The notes under the pieces are model-generated. The model saw nothing but the letters and a program-made list of their open reading frames with translations, did not search any database and had not been told where the DNA came from. From Candidatus Gastranaerophilales bacterium (GTDB taxonomy: Bacteria; Cyanobacteriota; Vampirovibrionia; Gastranaerophilales; Gastranaerophilaceae): a stretch of 56,830 bases of DNA. Position numbers and translations under genes: made by a program. Of the stretch, positions 14,503 through 36,727 are shown piece by piece. The stretch lies in contig CALVHD010000011.1 of the NCBI GenBank assembly GCA_944327245.1, forward strand, positions 1-56,830. The letters run 5' to 3'. Each line of letters starts with the position of its first letter. Position 1 is the first letter of the stretch.

Positions 14503-16719
14503 TTATTCTTTTTCTTCTTTTTCTTTTTCTTTTTCAAATGATGCACTGCTGTCAGAAGCATTTTGTGATTCACTTGTAGCTGGGTGATTGTTTGTTTGTT
14601 CCGGGCTCGGACTTGTTTCTGGAGCTGACGTTGGAGCTGGAGCCGGAGCTGAAGTTGGAGCTGGAGCTGGGGCTGAAGTTGGAGCCGGAGCCGGAGCTGA
14701 AGTTGGAGCCGGAGCTGGGGCTGAAGTTGGAGCTGGAGCCGGAGCTGACGTTGGAGCTGGAGCCGGAGCTGACGTTGGAGCTGACGTTGGAGCTACATCT
14801 TCATATGTTACCGGAGCTTGTGTTGGAGCTGGAGCCGGAGTAGTTGGTTCTGGTTCTATAATTTGTGTATCATCAGGGTTTACATCTGAAACAGGTGGAC
14901 AGTCGGTAGTTACATCAGGTAGCGTAGGTTCTTCTGATGGAGTTTCAGATGGAGCTATTGTTGGTGTAACACTTGGTTCATCAGATGGAGTTTCAGATGG
15001 AGCTATTGTTGGTGTAACACTTGGTTCTTCTGATGGAGTTTCTGATGGAGCTATTGTTGGTGTAACACTTGGTTCTTCTGATGGAGTAAATGTTGGTCCG
15101 TTTATTGGGTCATCAAAATCAACGCCGCTATCTCCAATATCTAAATCATCATCGTTACTGTCCGGTTTAGATGGTGTAACACTTGGTTCATCAGATGGAG
15201 TTTCAGATGGTGTTATACTTGGTTCATCAGATGGAGTTTCAGATGGAGTTATGCTTGGTTCATCAGATGGAGTCTCTGATGGAGTTATACTTGGTTCATC
15301 AGATGGAGTTTCAGATGGTGTTATACTTGGTTCATCAGATGGAGTTTCAGATGGAGTTATGCTTGGTTCATCAGATGGAGTCTCTGATGGAGTTATACTT
15401 GGTTCATCAGATGGAGTTTCTGATGGTGTTATACTTGGTTCATCAGATGGTGTAACACTTGGTTCATCGGATGGAGTTTCTGATGGTGTTATACTTGGTT
15501 CATCAGATGGTGTAACACTTGGTTCATCGGATGGAGTCTCAGATGGTGTTATACTTGGTTCATCAGATGGAGTAACACTTGGTTCTTCTGATGGAGTTCC
15601 AACAGGAGTTTCGGATGGAGTTCCAACAGGAGTTTCGGATGGAGTTCCAACAGGAGTTTCGGATGGAGTCCTTACTGGAGTTTCAGATGGAGTCCTTACT
15701 GGAGTTTCAGATGGAGTTTCTGATGGAGTTTCAGGTTCGCCATCGCCCTCGAATAGTAAATAATCTTGATATTTTTCAATATCATCAATATGATAGTATC
15801 CTGTTCTGCTGTTGTCATTTTCATCATATTCACTAAAGTTTAAAGAATCAGGATGGTATTTACTTGTATTAATATCTTCATTAGGATCTACGCCGTCTGC
15901 ATATGCGTTTGCAGAGTTATCAACATTTGTTCTATCTGTTCCTGTTGTGTTTGCAAAGCTAAACATATCATAGTCTTGCGGTTGAATCATAAATACTTGG
16001 GTTTCATCACCGGTATTACCCGCAACAACGCAGATGGTGCCATCGTCTTCAACTTTTGCAACAACACCCATATGTCCGCTGGTAAGAAAACATATATCAC
16101 CTGATTGGGTTTTATTGGCTTCAACCATAGCACCTGCATCTTCAGCGGCTTTTCTTACATATTTAACTGTCCAAGAATCTTCAACGCCATCTCTGTTGTT
16201 ATCTTGGCTTATATCCTTATACCATTGAGCTGTTTCTACACCTGATGTTTCTTCAATGTAGTTAACATAAGCAGCACACCAAGCAACACCGCCATTATCA
16301 TCATTAGCGCCAAGCGTGCTTTGATCTTGAACGAAAATATCGGCATCGCCGCCGTCTTCAGTTCTTATATTGCCGTCAATAATATTTTGTTCTTTGGCAA
16401 GAGTTGTTCTGATAAGTTTTTCTTCTTCTGATAGTTCATCAAATTTATTTACAGGCTCTTGGGGTGCGTCAGGCTCTGTTTCTTCTTGAGATGCTGTGTC
16501 ATAAATGTTTTCATCAGAATTGCTTTGCTGATTTAGTGCGGCAATTTTTGATGGAGCTAATGTTTCAAATATATTTTCTTCATTAGCGCTTTTATCTGCT
16601 GCTTGGACTTGCGGAGCATAAGTATTTTGCTCTGTGTCAGTTTTTGTTGATTGGTTTGTAAAACCATTTTTGATATAATCTTGTACATTTTTCAGAAAAT
16701 CAGGTATTTCAAATCCCAT
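14503..16719 (-). CDS. CHAP-domain (NlpC/P60-like) protein with long Pro/Ser/Thr repeat tail
   Basis: 738 residues. No signal peptide: it starts MGFEIPDFLKNVQDYIKNGF. Residues about 135-260 form a CHAP/TIGR02594-like amidase domain with Cys148 (GGVAWCAAYVNY), His216 (SGHMGVVAKV) and Asn235 (AGNTGD) as the likely catalytic set, so cleavage of peptidoglycan cross-links is expected. From about 330 to the end lie low-complexity tandem repeats: 8-residue SETPVGTP units, 12-residue TPSDEPSITPSE units, 16-residue TPTIAPSETPSEEPSV units and 8-residue APAPTSAP units, ending in SFEKEKEKEEKE. These probably form an extended, wall-spanning stalk. AAGGAAGG precedes the ATG. It lies between flagellar/pilin genes and a small membrane protein. 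How it leaves the cytoplasm is unclear. Confidence 0.88.
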   Translation of the reverse strand: MGFEIPDFLKNVQDYIKNGFTNQSTKTDTEQNTYAPQVQAADKSANEENIFETLAPSKIAALNQQSNSDENIYDTASQEETEPDAPQEPVNKFDELSEEEKLIRTTLAKEQNIIDGNIRTEDGGDADIFVQDQSTLGANDDNGGVAWCAAYVNYIEETSGVETAQWYKDISQDNNRDGVEDSWTVKYVRKAAEDAGAMVEANKTQSGDICFLTSGHMGVVAKVEDDGTICVVAGNTGDETQVFMIQPQDYDMFSFANTTGTDRTNVDNSANAYADGVDPNEDINTSKYHPDSLNFSEYDENDNSRTGYYHIDDIEKYQDYLLFEGDGEPETPSETPSETPVRTPSETPVRTPSETPVGTPSETPVGTPSETPVGTPSEEPSVTPSDEPSITPSETPSDEPSVTPSDEPSITPSETPSDEPSVTPSDEPSITPSETPSDEPSITPSETPSDEPSITPSETPSDEPSITPSETPSDEPSITPSETPSDEPSITPSETPSDEPSITPSETPSDEPSVTPSKPDSNDDDLDIGDSGVDFDDPINGPTFTPSEEPSVTPTIAPSETPSEEPSVTPTIAPSETPSDEPSVTPTIAPSETPSEEPTLPDVTTDCPPVSDVNPDDTQIIEPEPTTPAPAPTQAPVTYEDVAPTSAPTSAPAPAPTSAPAPAPTSAPAPAPTSAPAPAPTSAPAPAPTSAPAPAPTSAPETSPSPEQTNNHPATSESQNASDSSASFEKEKEKEEKE
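14620..15740. repeat. Coding minisatellite arrays in the CHAP-protein gene
   Basis: Three repeat types in tandem within one reading frame: about 24-bp units (14620-14790, encoding APAPTSAP), about 48-bp units (14930-15085) and about 36-bp units (15175-15590), followed by further 24-bp SETPVGTP-type units (15583-15730). Copies within each block are nearly identical in DNA, implying recent expansion and length instability. All unit lengths are multiples of three, so copy-number change preserves the frame. Confidence 0.9.
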
Positions 16720-19185: not shown

Positions 19186-21033
19186 ATGTCTTCTCGACAG
19201 ATTGACAATATAAGTGACAGTGAAAATAAAATTGAAACAGCTGAAGATAATCAAGACAGGATAGATAATACAAAATTAAATGCGGTTATAAGGGCATTTA
19301 TTGCAAATATTGGTATCGCTTTGGTTAAATTCATTTGTTTTTTGGTATCAAAGAGTTCTGCGATGCTGGCTGAGGCAATTCATAGCGGAGTTGATTCTTT
19401 TAATAGTATTTGTCTTATGGTTGGTATCAAAAGGGGGGCGCGTCCTGCAGATAGCGAACATCCTTTTGGCTATGGATTGGAAGCCAATATATGGGCTATG
19501 TTTGCCTCTATATTAATGCTTGCGGGTGCTTTTGTTGCAATATATCATGGTTTTGATAAATTATTTAATCATCATGATATAGGAGAGTTGTTAAAAAATT
19601 ATAATTATATTGCGGTTGCTCTTATAATTAGCATGATGTTTGAAGCTTGGGCTGTTTCAAGTGCAACAAATGCTGTTGTTGAAGAGGCCATGATTGTTGA
19701 AAAAAATATAATAAAGAAATTTTTTATATCTTTGAAATATATTAGAAAAATTCAATCTCCAACAACCAAATTTGTTTGGTATGAAGATACGGCAGCTTTT
19801 TTGGGTGTATTTATAGCTCTTGTAGCTCTTACTGTTTCTAAATTTTTTATGCCTGTTGAATTTGCATATATTCCAGATGCGATTGCGTCCATAATAATAG
19901 GTATAATTTTGCTTTGTTTGGCTATTTATCTTTTAAGAAACAATGTTAGCTCCCTAACCGTTCAATCAGCACAACCTCGCGTTGAAGAAATAATCAGAAA
20001 TGTTGCTTCAACAATACACGGGATTGCTCGTGTAGTTGAATTAAAGACTATGGATTTAGGCAGTTCAGGGTTAGTTGTTAATATGACTATTGAGGTAGAT
20101 CCTGAAACACAGATGAAAGATGCTGATGATATAGCTCAAATGTTAGAGCGTAAAATCAGAAAATATGTTAAAAACATAAACGATATTACAATTGAATTAC
20201 AGGCGGATGACGAAGAGGGTAATTGGGAAGAAAAATTTGAAAAATTGATTAAAGAGGGCGAAAATATCGGCGCAATCGATAATCATGAAGGGAAAATGCT
20301 TTCTAATTTTTTCTCTTTTGCAAATACGGTTGTAAAGGAAATTATGGTTCCAAGAACAGAGATTGTTTTTGTGGATTGCGAAAAAAATATCTATGAATTG
20401 TCTGATATAATTATTTCTTCAGGACATACAAGAATTCCTTTGTATGAAGAAAATATTGATAATATTTTAGGTGTAATTAATGCCAAAGATGTTCTTAAAG
20501 TTATTAAAAATAATAACATCGATGAGACTTTCAAAATAAAAACAATTGCAAGAGATTTGTTAATTGTCCCTGAAAACAAATTTATAAGCGATTTATTGTC
20601 TGATTTCACTTCTTCAAAAAATCAAATAGCTGCTGTTGTGGACGAACATGGCGGAATAGCGGGCATAGTTACAATAGAAGATATTATTGAAGAAATTGTA
20701 GGTGAAATTTATGATGAATTTGATAAGATTGAAACACCTGAAATTGTTGTAATAGATGACAATACTCTTGAAGTTTCATCTAAAACAAGTATAGATGATA
20801 TAAACGAAAGGTTTGATCAAGATATTTTAAGCGAAGATTTTCAAACAATAGGCGGTTATGTTTTTGGTTTGTTGGGCAGAGAGCCTGAAGTCGGCGATGT
20901 TGTTGAAGATAAAAATATTACATATACAATATTAGAAATTGACGGAATTAAGATAACGAGAATAAAAATGCATAAAAATACACCTTTTGTTGATAAAGAA
21001 GAAACAAAAGAGGAAGCAAAAGAGGAAGAATAA
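19186..21033 (+). CDS. Cation diffusion facilitator fused to a CBS/CorC_HlyC module
   Basis: 615 residues. Residues about 30-340 are a cation-diffusion-facilitator transporter. TM2 carries the metal pair His66/Asp70 (AEAIHSGVD), the HPFGYG motif is at 92-97, and TM5 has Glu200/Asp201 (YEDTAAFLGV) as in ZnT9-type members, with a C-terminal cytoplasmic domain to about 340. Residues about 365-510 are a CBS pair opening with MVPRTEI and containing DEHGGIAGIVTIEDIIEEIVGE. Residues about 520-595 are the CorC_HlyC domain (IGGYVFGLLGREPEVGD). Both halves are normally separate proteins; here they share one frame with no internal stop. Likely a metal exporter with a nucleotide-sensing regulatory tail (inference). 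An AAGGA site precedes the ATG. The stop overlaps the gpsA start (TAATG). Confidence 0.9.
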   Translation: MSSRQIDNISDSENKIETAEDNQDRIDNTKLNAVIRAFIANIGIALVKFICFLVSKSSAMLAEAIHSGVDSFNSICLMVGIKRGARPADSEHPFGYGLEANIWAMFASILMLAGAFVAIYHGFDKLFNHHDIGELLKNYNYIAVALIISMMFEAWAVSSATNAVVEEAMIVEKNIIKKFFISLKYIRKIQSPTTKFVWYEDTAAFLGVFIALVALTVSKFFMPVEFAYIPDAIASIIIGIILLCLAIYLLRNNVSSLTVQSAQPRVEEIIRNVASTIHGIARVVELKTMDLGSSGLVVNMTIEVDPETQMKDADDIAQMLERKIRKYVKNINDITIELQADDEEGNWEEKFEKLIKEGENIGAIDNHEGKMLSNFFSFANTVVKEIMVPRTEIVFVDCEKNIYELSDIIISSGHTRIPLYEENIDNILGVINAKDVLKVIKNNNIDETFKIKTIARDLLIVPENKFISDLLSDFTSSKNQIAAVVDEHGGIAGIVTIEDIIEEIVGEIYDEFDKIETPEIVVIDDNTLEVSSKTSIDDINERFDQDILSEDFQTIGGYVFGLLGREPEVGDVVEDKNITYTILEIDGIKITRIKMHKNTPFVDKEETKEEAKEEE

Positions 21034-22025
21034 TGAAATTAACTGTATTGGGTCCGGGGTGTTGGGGCTTAACTATTGCAAAATTAGAAAACAATAATTT
21101 TGATGAAATTTGCGTTTGGGGAAGAAAAGAAGATATCTCCAAAGAATTAAAAGAGGAAAAAAGAATTGAAAAGCCTCTTAAAATTGAACTTGATAAAAAA
21201 GTTGAAATAACGGACGATTTAGCTTATGCCCTTAAAGATGCGGAGATTATTCTTCTTGTTGTTTCTACATCAGGAATTCGTCCGGTTTGTGAGCAAATTA
21301 AAAAAATCGGCTTAGAAAAAAATCAAATTCTTGTAAATTTATCAAAAGGGATTGAATTACCATCATTGAAAAGAATGTCTGAGGTAATCTTGGAAGTTCT
21401 GCCTGATGTTAATTTTGCTGTTTTATCAGGTCCTACTTTAGCTAGAGAAATAATTGAAGGTAAGCCGACACTAGCTACAATTGCATCAAATGATATGGAG
21501 ATTGCTTCAAAGGCTCAAAAATTATTAAATGTTCCATCTCTATTCAGGCTTTATACTAATTCTGATATGATTGGAGTGGAATTGGGCGGCAGTTTGAAAA
21601 ATGTTATTGCTATTGCTTCAGGATTTGCAAGCTCCATGGGTCTTGGAGATAATTTGAGGGGCTCTTTGTTGACTCGCGGAATGGCTGAGATGGTCAGAGT
21701 GGGCGTGGCATTAGGGGCTAAAGCACAAACATTATATGGATTATCAGGCATGGGTGATTTGATTGCAACGGCTTCGAGTCCATATTCAAGAAATTATACT
21801 GTTGGGTCTTTAATTGCACAAGGCAAAAAAATTGATGATATTTTAGCCCATTTAGGTTCCGTAGCTGAAGGTGTTAAAACATCAAAGGCGTTATGTGAAT
21901 TAGCCAAGAAATTGAATATTGATGTTCCTGTTTCAAATGCTATATATGAGGCAGTTTACACAGATATTACTCCAAAGGAAATTTTGGACAAATTAATGAA
22001 TAGGAAATTAAAAGAAGAAGATTAA
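21033..22025 (+). CDS. gpsA: Glycerol-3-phosphate dehydrogenase [NAD(P)+]
   Basis: 330 residues. N-terminal Rossmann fold with GPGCWGLTIA (8-17), the family motif NLSKGIE (about 104-110), SGPTLAREI (about 132-140) and the helical catalytic domain with GGSLKNVIAIASG, supplying the active-site Lys. It reduces dihydroxyacetone phosphate to sn-glycerol-3-phosphate, the phospholipid backbone. The first position of the dinucleotide loop is Gly-x-Gly-x-x-Gly with Pro inserted (GPGCWG), compared with the common GAGAWG. Translationally coupled to the upstream transporter by a one-base overlap and followed after 1 nt by a small secreted protein. Confidence 0.96.
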   Translation: MKLTVLGPGCWGLTIAKLENNNFDEICVWGRKEDISKELKEEKRIEKPLKIELDKKVEITDDLAYALKDAEIILLVVSTSGIRPVCEQIKKIGLEKNQILVNLSKGIELPSLKRMSEVILEVLPDVNFAVLSGPTLAREIIEGKPTLATIASNDMEIASKAQKLLNVPSLFRLYTNSDMIGVELGGSLKNVIAIASGFASSMGLGDNLRGSLLTRGMAEMVRVGVALGAKAQTLYGLSGMGDLIATASSPYSRNYTVGSLIAQGKKIDDILAHLGSVAEGVKTSKALCELAKKLNIDVPVSNAIYEAVYTDITPKEILDKLMNRKLKEED

Positions 22026-36457: not shown

Positions 36458-36533
36458 ATAGTATTAATAAGTATTGAGTAGTATATTTATATAAAAAGTC
36501 AAAAAAATTTTTTTTGATTTTTTATAAATAAAT

Positions 36534-36606
36534 GTCCACGAGAGGATTCGAACCTCCGACATTCACCTTAGGAGGGTGACGTTCTATCCATCTGAACTAC
36601 GTGGAC
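36534..36606 (-). tRNA. tRNA-Arg (anticodon CCT)
   Basis: 73 nt cloverleaf on the minus strand. Acceptor GTCCACG/CGTGGAC, anticodon loop CTCCTAA (anticodon CCT, reading AGG) and T-arm GGAGGTTCGAATCCTC. The terminal CCA is not encoded and must be added after transcription; a CCA-adding enzyme gene is at 38201. Confidence 0.95.

Positions 36607-36654: not shown

Positions 36655-36727
<73 letters not shown>

Follow-up and report, generated by a model that had tools for sequence, protein, structure and literature searches.

Introduction

CDF proteins (YiiP/FieF, MamM and the ZnT proteins; TC 2.A.4), which combine the Cation_efflux fold and an HxxxD motif in TM2 with a ZT_dimer domain, are usually described as regulated through the cytoplasmic domain by the metal that they carry. 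Transport by YiiP is activated when metal binds to its C-terminal domain (PMC10710835). The CNNM/CorB/CorC magnesium transporters, such as MtCorB, TpCorC, and E. coli CorC, feature an acidic-helix linker, a CBS pair with ATP-contact residues, and a CorC domain, in that order. In MtCorB, Mg-ATP dimerizes the CBS pair, and this is proposed to release the membrane domain from inhibition (PMC8242095). According to PMC10710835, both families operate as two-fold dimers, and CBS pairs also serve as nucleotide sensors on unrelated transporters, including MgtE, OpuA, and some MFS proteins, in a "plug and play" fashion.

The window, that is, the whole stretch of 56,830 nucleotides analyzed here, comes from a Candidatus Gastranaerophilales bacterium; the source organisms are non-photosynthetic relatives of cyanobacteria. 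One of its genes encodes a protein that shares the Cation_efflux fold, the TM2 HxxxD motif, and the ZT_dimer domain with the CDF family and adds about 260 residues with CBS and CorC domains. Compared to CNNM/CorB/CorC proteins, the linker, CBS pair, and CorC domain follow in the same order, with a CDF six-helix transporter and a ZT_dimer domain in place of DUF21. In contrast to FieF, TM5 carries an adjacent E-D pair instead of an HxxxD motif, and the site-C histidines are absent. Unfused CDFs of the E-D type, such as those encoded on plasmids of Azospirillum, Sphingobium, and Paenarthrobacter, share the TM2 HxxxD motif and the TM5 E-D pair, with ~30% identity over the CDF half, but they terminate after the CDF C-terminal domain. 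Whereas MgtE, OpuA, and the MFS proteins carry a CBS pair, the fusion borrows three CNNM-type parts jointly (linker, CBS pair, and CorC domain) and places them on a CDF, a case not named in the available sections of PMC10710835. No description of a CDF–CBS–CorC fusion was found in the open-access literature; the architecture may nevertheless be present in protein databases without comment.

Results

A Complete CDF Joined to the CNNM/CorB Cytosolic Part

The fusion gene is a single uninterrupted open reading frame that runs from ATG to TAA without internal stops (Table 1). A sequence-only reading of the window had described one 615-codon frame with a complete CDF followed by a CBS pair and a CorC_HlyC domain. 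The open reading frame and a Pfam search bear this out, with all four Pfam families above their curated cut-offs (26.6 bits for Cation_efflux and 27 bits for CorC_HlyC; CBS scored 51 bits over two stretches) and the C-terminal part being CBS/CorC; the ZT_dimer domain and the acidic-helix linker had been missed. The NCBIfam model TIGR01297 scored 144.5 bits against a cut-off of 82.35, and Cation_efflux, ZT_dimer, CBS, and CorC_HlyC were each matched in 18 of 18 proteins of an alignment of diverse orthologs. DUF21 (PF01595) had no match in the fusion protein or across the whole genome from which the window derives. In a PDB sequence search, E. coli CorC aligned to residues 349–596 (E 4e-40), and the CorC/CorB matches start upstream of the CBS pair, inside the CNNM/CorB acidic-helix linker. 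The protein is a whole CDF, comprising membrane and cytoplasmic dimer domains, joined to the entire CNNM/CorB cytosolic part minus the DUF21 membrane domain.

Table 1. Features of the fusion gene and its downstream neighbor (positions in the window)
Feature	Position	Strand	Evidence
CDF–CBS–CorC fusion gene, 615 aa	19186..21033	+	ORF, Pfam, orthologs
Cation_efflux (CDF) six-helix membrane domain, residues 35–257	19288..19956	+	Pfam 109 bits; FieF profile match 98.3%; YiiP 8f6k structural match
TM2 metal ligands H66 and D70	19381..19395	+	invariant in 87 unique fusions
TM5 E200–D201 pair	19783..19788	+	E 87/87, D 86/87 in fusions; also in unfused relatives
ZT_dimer, CDF cytoplasmic dimer domain, residues 267–337	19984..20196	+	Pfam 36.5 bits; MamM CTD match; FieF alignment
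Junction and acidic-helix linker, residues 345–382	20218..20331	+	CorC/CorB alignments start at 348–349; model helices 347–361 and 366–386
CBS pair, residues 383–508, with ATP-contact equivalents T415, R416, I494, T496, D499	20332..20709	+	Pfam; PDB sequence matches; 7msu structural match; conservation; contacts from PMC8242095
CorC_HlyC domain, residues 522–598	20749..20979	+	Pfam 64.2 bits; 2r2z structural match
gpsA-like neighbor gene, 1-base overlap with the stop codon of the fusion	21033..22025	+	ORF list; locus comparison

An AlphaFold2 model built on 18 orthologs (mean pLDDT 71.5, pTM 0.41), usable for the domains and not for their packing, contains the membrane helices and the CDF C-terminal domain, followed by a pair of helices in the linker, a CBS pair, and a CorC domain. 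The model was compared with known structures in Foldseek and VIA-align. Using VIA-align, residues 24–343 (membrane domain and CTD) were matched to YiiP 8f6k (Z 20.6, rmsd 7.8, 272 aligned), the ZT_dimer region to the MamM CTD (Z 14.0, rmsd 1.6–1.7, 79 aligned), the CBS pair to that of MtCorB with Mg-ATP (7msu; Z 15.9, rmsd 1.7, 112 aligned), and the CorC domain to the CorC-type domain 2r2z (Z 14.7, rmsd 1.3, 82 aligned). The best structural matches include the AMP- or ATP-bound CorC-type CBS pairs 7cfi, 3jtf, 3lfr, and 7msu.

Conservation and Distribution of the Fusion

Full-length, in-frame orthologs with 37–92% identity occur in about 95 other genomes, including that of Vampirovibrio chlorellavorus NCIMB 11383. 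The junction (residues 337–381) measures 45 residues in all 87 unique fused proteins, with W347 conserved in 98% of them, and dN/dS, measured against five relatives, is 0.03–0.10 in both halves. A sequencing error that removed a stop codon between the halves had been named beforehand as grounds for refutation. The recurrence of the same junction in about 95 other genomes, its constant length, and the low dN/dS on both sides rule this out and leave any assembly or sequencing artefact joining two adjacent genes a negligible probability. The fusion is genuine and ancient, and it has been under selection.

Within the order of the source organism, the full fusion is present in 78 of 286 sampled genomes, representing 19 of 50 genera. 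This count includes genome G028, whose ortholog (contig C61:681-2342) has an in-frame gap of ~44 residues directly before TM5, reflecting either a deletion or an assembly fault. A Vampirovibrionales-type order (named from record titles) carries the fusion in 18 of 18 genomes from 12 genera, and in a class-level sample the fusion is confined to these two orders, in keeping with an earlier guess that it would recur in Vampirovibrionia. An unfused ortholog of the CDF half, whether from fission or as an independent CDF, was found in none of the 286 genomes; those without the fusion contain CDFs that are distant at best (26–33% identity).

A scan of a genome collection, using patterns derived from the fused proteins, yielded in-frame fusions at 80 of 80 loci (the best 80 of 159 relatives); more distant fusions may exist elsewhere. 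Nearly all of these best 80 loci bear titles of Gastranaerophilales, Vampirovibrionales, Melainabacteria, Cyanobacteria, or unplaced bacterial MAGs; V. chlorellavorus NCIMB 11383 is also among them, and one is titled as a Clostridia MAG (L103), which is probably a misnomer. Outside the class, no fusion was found in a sample of other Cyanobacteriota, and 72,556 plasmid records contained no single-gene fusion, the one place that covers most of the query being two genes. The premise that the two modules normally occur in separate proteins thus holds for the plasmid records tested and for Cyanobacteriota outside the two orders. On the Azospirillum ramasamyi plasmid NZ_CP029834.1 (L138 2905-5586), a gene for an E-D type CDF lies beside a separate gene for a CNNM ("hemolysin family" protein), possibly an unfused version of this partnership; in A. 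lipoferum the CDF is present at the corresponding place, without a CNNM.

Origin and Genomic Neighborhood

In a maximum-likelihood tree of CBS–CorC modules, in which the placement of a long-branch archaeal row (L184) is unsure, 27 fused proteins form one clade (100/98), separate from the CNNMs sampled from these bacteria. Inside this clade the two orders split apart, matching the expectation for vertical inheritance. Given that the fused module forms one clade, the fusion arose once and was passed on intact through two bacterial orders by vertical descent. Derivation of the module from Vampirovibrionia CNNMs was rejected, since the fused modules stand apart from the sampled CNNMs. The CNNMs of these bacteria (loci L034–L037 and L143–L182) themselves split mainly into two clades. 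One is found in genomes that lack the fusion; fused genomes mostly have the other or no CNNM.

A conserved operon partner was also considered and rejected: gpsA, murT-like, and zinc-ribbon neighbors occur only in close relatives, and the gpsA-like gene adjoins the fusion in many of these and not in distant ones. A search for metal or nucleotide riboswitches upstream gave no Rfam hit in the vicinity of the gene, either in the window or at 18 loci. Elsewhere in the window, positions 14503–16719 (− strand) encode a 738-aa protein with an N-terminal globular part and a C-terminal half made up of an extended series of repeats of the SETPSDEPS(V/I)TP and APAPTS types; the protein resembles secreted or surface proteins. 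Two divergent tRNA genes (36533–36606, − strand; 36655–36727, + strand) are separated by ~50 bases.

Relation to CNNM Proteins

In the window's genome, the sole CorC_HlyC domain is that of the fusion; there is one further CDF and no match to MgtE. Within the order, a CNNM is missing from 34 of the 78 genomes with the fusion and from 10 of the 208 without it (Fisher p 4e-14); at genus level, it is missing from 10 of the 19 genera with the fusion and from 0 of the 31 without it (p 9e-6), both comparisons ignoring shared ancestry and missing contigs. In the second order, where every genome is fused, 17 of 18 lack a CNNM. The fusion probably fills in for some of the Mg/Co efflux otherwise carried out by the absent CNNM proteins, and the pattern suggests that it renders CNNM dispensable.

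The same distribution bears on a different role, in which the fusion would mainly carry CBS–CorC to act in trans on other transporters, with the CDF half serving mostly as a membrane anchor. E. coli CorC, to which the module aligns so closely, is a soluble CBS–CorC protein, and the 44 of 78 fused genomes in the window's own order that keep a CNNM would offer a possible target. However, the 17 CNNM-free genomes of the second order hold no such target, and purifying selection on the CDF half is strong, with its ligands invariant, making a function in trans quite improbable.

Metal Ligands and Equivalents of the MtCorB Nucleotide Contacts

The metal ligands H66/D70 and the putative ligands E200/D201 are found at the positions assigned to them by the sequence-only reading, and all are invariant among the 87 unique fused proteins except D201, which is present in 86. 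A correction concerns the putative TM5 ligands: in an alignment with FieF, E200–D201 is out of register with H153/D157 and forms an adjacent pair rather than the HxxxD motif of FieF/YiiP. Such a pair is common to unfused relatives at ~30% identity, and is therefore a trait of a CDF subfamily that was not acquired with the fusion; ZnT9/SLC30A9 presumably carries it as well. In the fusion, V284, T301, and D314 take the place of H232, H248, and H261, the site-C histidines of FieF. Loss of the CDF metal-sensing site together with the fusion was nevertheless rejected, as the unfused relatives likewise lack the FieF histidines.

MtCorB contacts ATP through Thr207, Ser234, Arg235, Thr313, and Asp316 (PMC8242095); the equivalents in the fusion were assigned by motif spacing. 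R235, T313, and D316 correspond to R416, T496, and D499, which are invariant (87/87), and S234 corresponds to a threonine or serine at position 415, again in 87 of 87 proteins. The ribose contact T207 is replaced by V or I at position 388 in every fusion, E. coli CorC having an isoleucine there, and the equivalent of F233 is mostly histidine. Based on these two substitutions, affinity or nucleotide choice may differ from MtCorB.

Alternatively, CBS–CorC could be a passive add-on for dimerization or membrane anchoring, in which case the CDF would be constitutive and the fused part would stabilize the dimer or recruit partners without nucleotide gating. Site C of YiiP is reported to be crucial to dimer integrity (PMC10617992), and an extra dimer module could help a CDF C-terminal domain devoid of FieF-type site-C histidines; the V/I at the T207 position would also fit. 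Yet a scaffold would not need the phosphate- and ribose-contact equivalents R416, T496, and D499, which are kept without exception in both orders, and the unfused relatives lack site C while carrying no such module. We regard a passive role as unlikely.

Discussion

The sequence-only reading had suggested that cation export is coupled to the nucleotide level. The fusion on which this idea was founded is real, and its metal ligands and ATP-contact residues are conserved; the coupling itself we infer. Nucleotide-coupled export is the best explanation because both sets of residues are conserved. With an ATP-responsive dimer placed directly after the CDF dimer domain, the simplest mechanism would have Mg-ATP-driven CBS dimerization permit or stimulate export.

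In such a model, the CDF half would be a homodimeric antiporter exporting a divalent metal, with the CNNM/CorB regulatory module appended to the cytoplasmic dimer domain. The dimer interface of the CBS pair would bind Mg-ATP or another adenine nucleotide, as in MtCorB. The effect of CBS dimerization would then travel along the acidic helices and across the junction of fixed length, reaching first the CDF C-terminal dimer and then the membrane domain, such that plentiful ATP would permit or stimulate divalent-cation export. The dimer state, the nucleotide, the sign of control, the metal, and the direction of transport are predictions of this model. The purpose of the fusion would probably be to let metal export track the cellular ATP level. 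We assign a probability of roughly 0.6 to the prediction that the protein is a homodimeric divalent-cation CDF exporter, gated by Mg-ATP or an adenine nucleotide, that takes over part of the CNNM role. A bolder version, which we put forward only tentatively and consider doubtful, would have a CDF that acquired the regulatory half of a CNNM magnesium exporter export Mg2+ (or Co2+/Mn2+) under Mg-ATP control and replace CNNM across a whole order, the CNNM cytosolic module being an exchangeable ATP/Mg switch.

CBS pairs are already known from many transporters ("plug and play", PMC10710835). Here, the nucleotide-sensing half of a different transporter family sits, through a conserved junction, on a CDF that lacks the canonical site-C histidines. 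If the model is correct, the CNNM cytosolic module would be able to drive an unrelated membrane domain, and the fusion would provide a natural chimera for studying how CBS/CorC signals reach the transporter. In bacteria without CNNM, the fusion is a candidate for the missing Mg/Co exporter.
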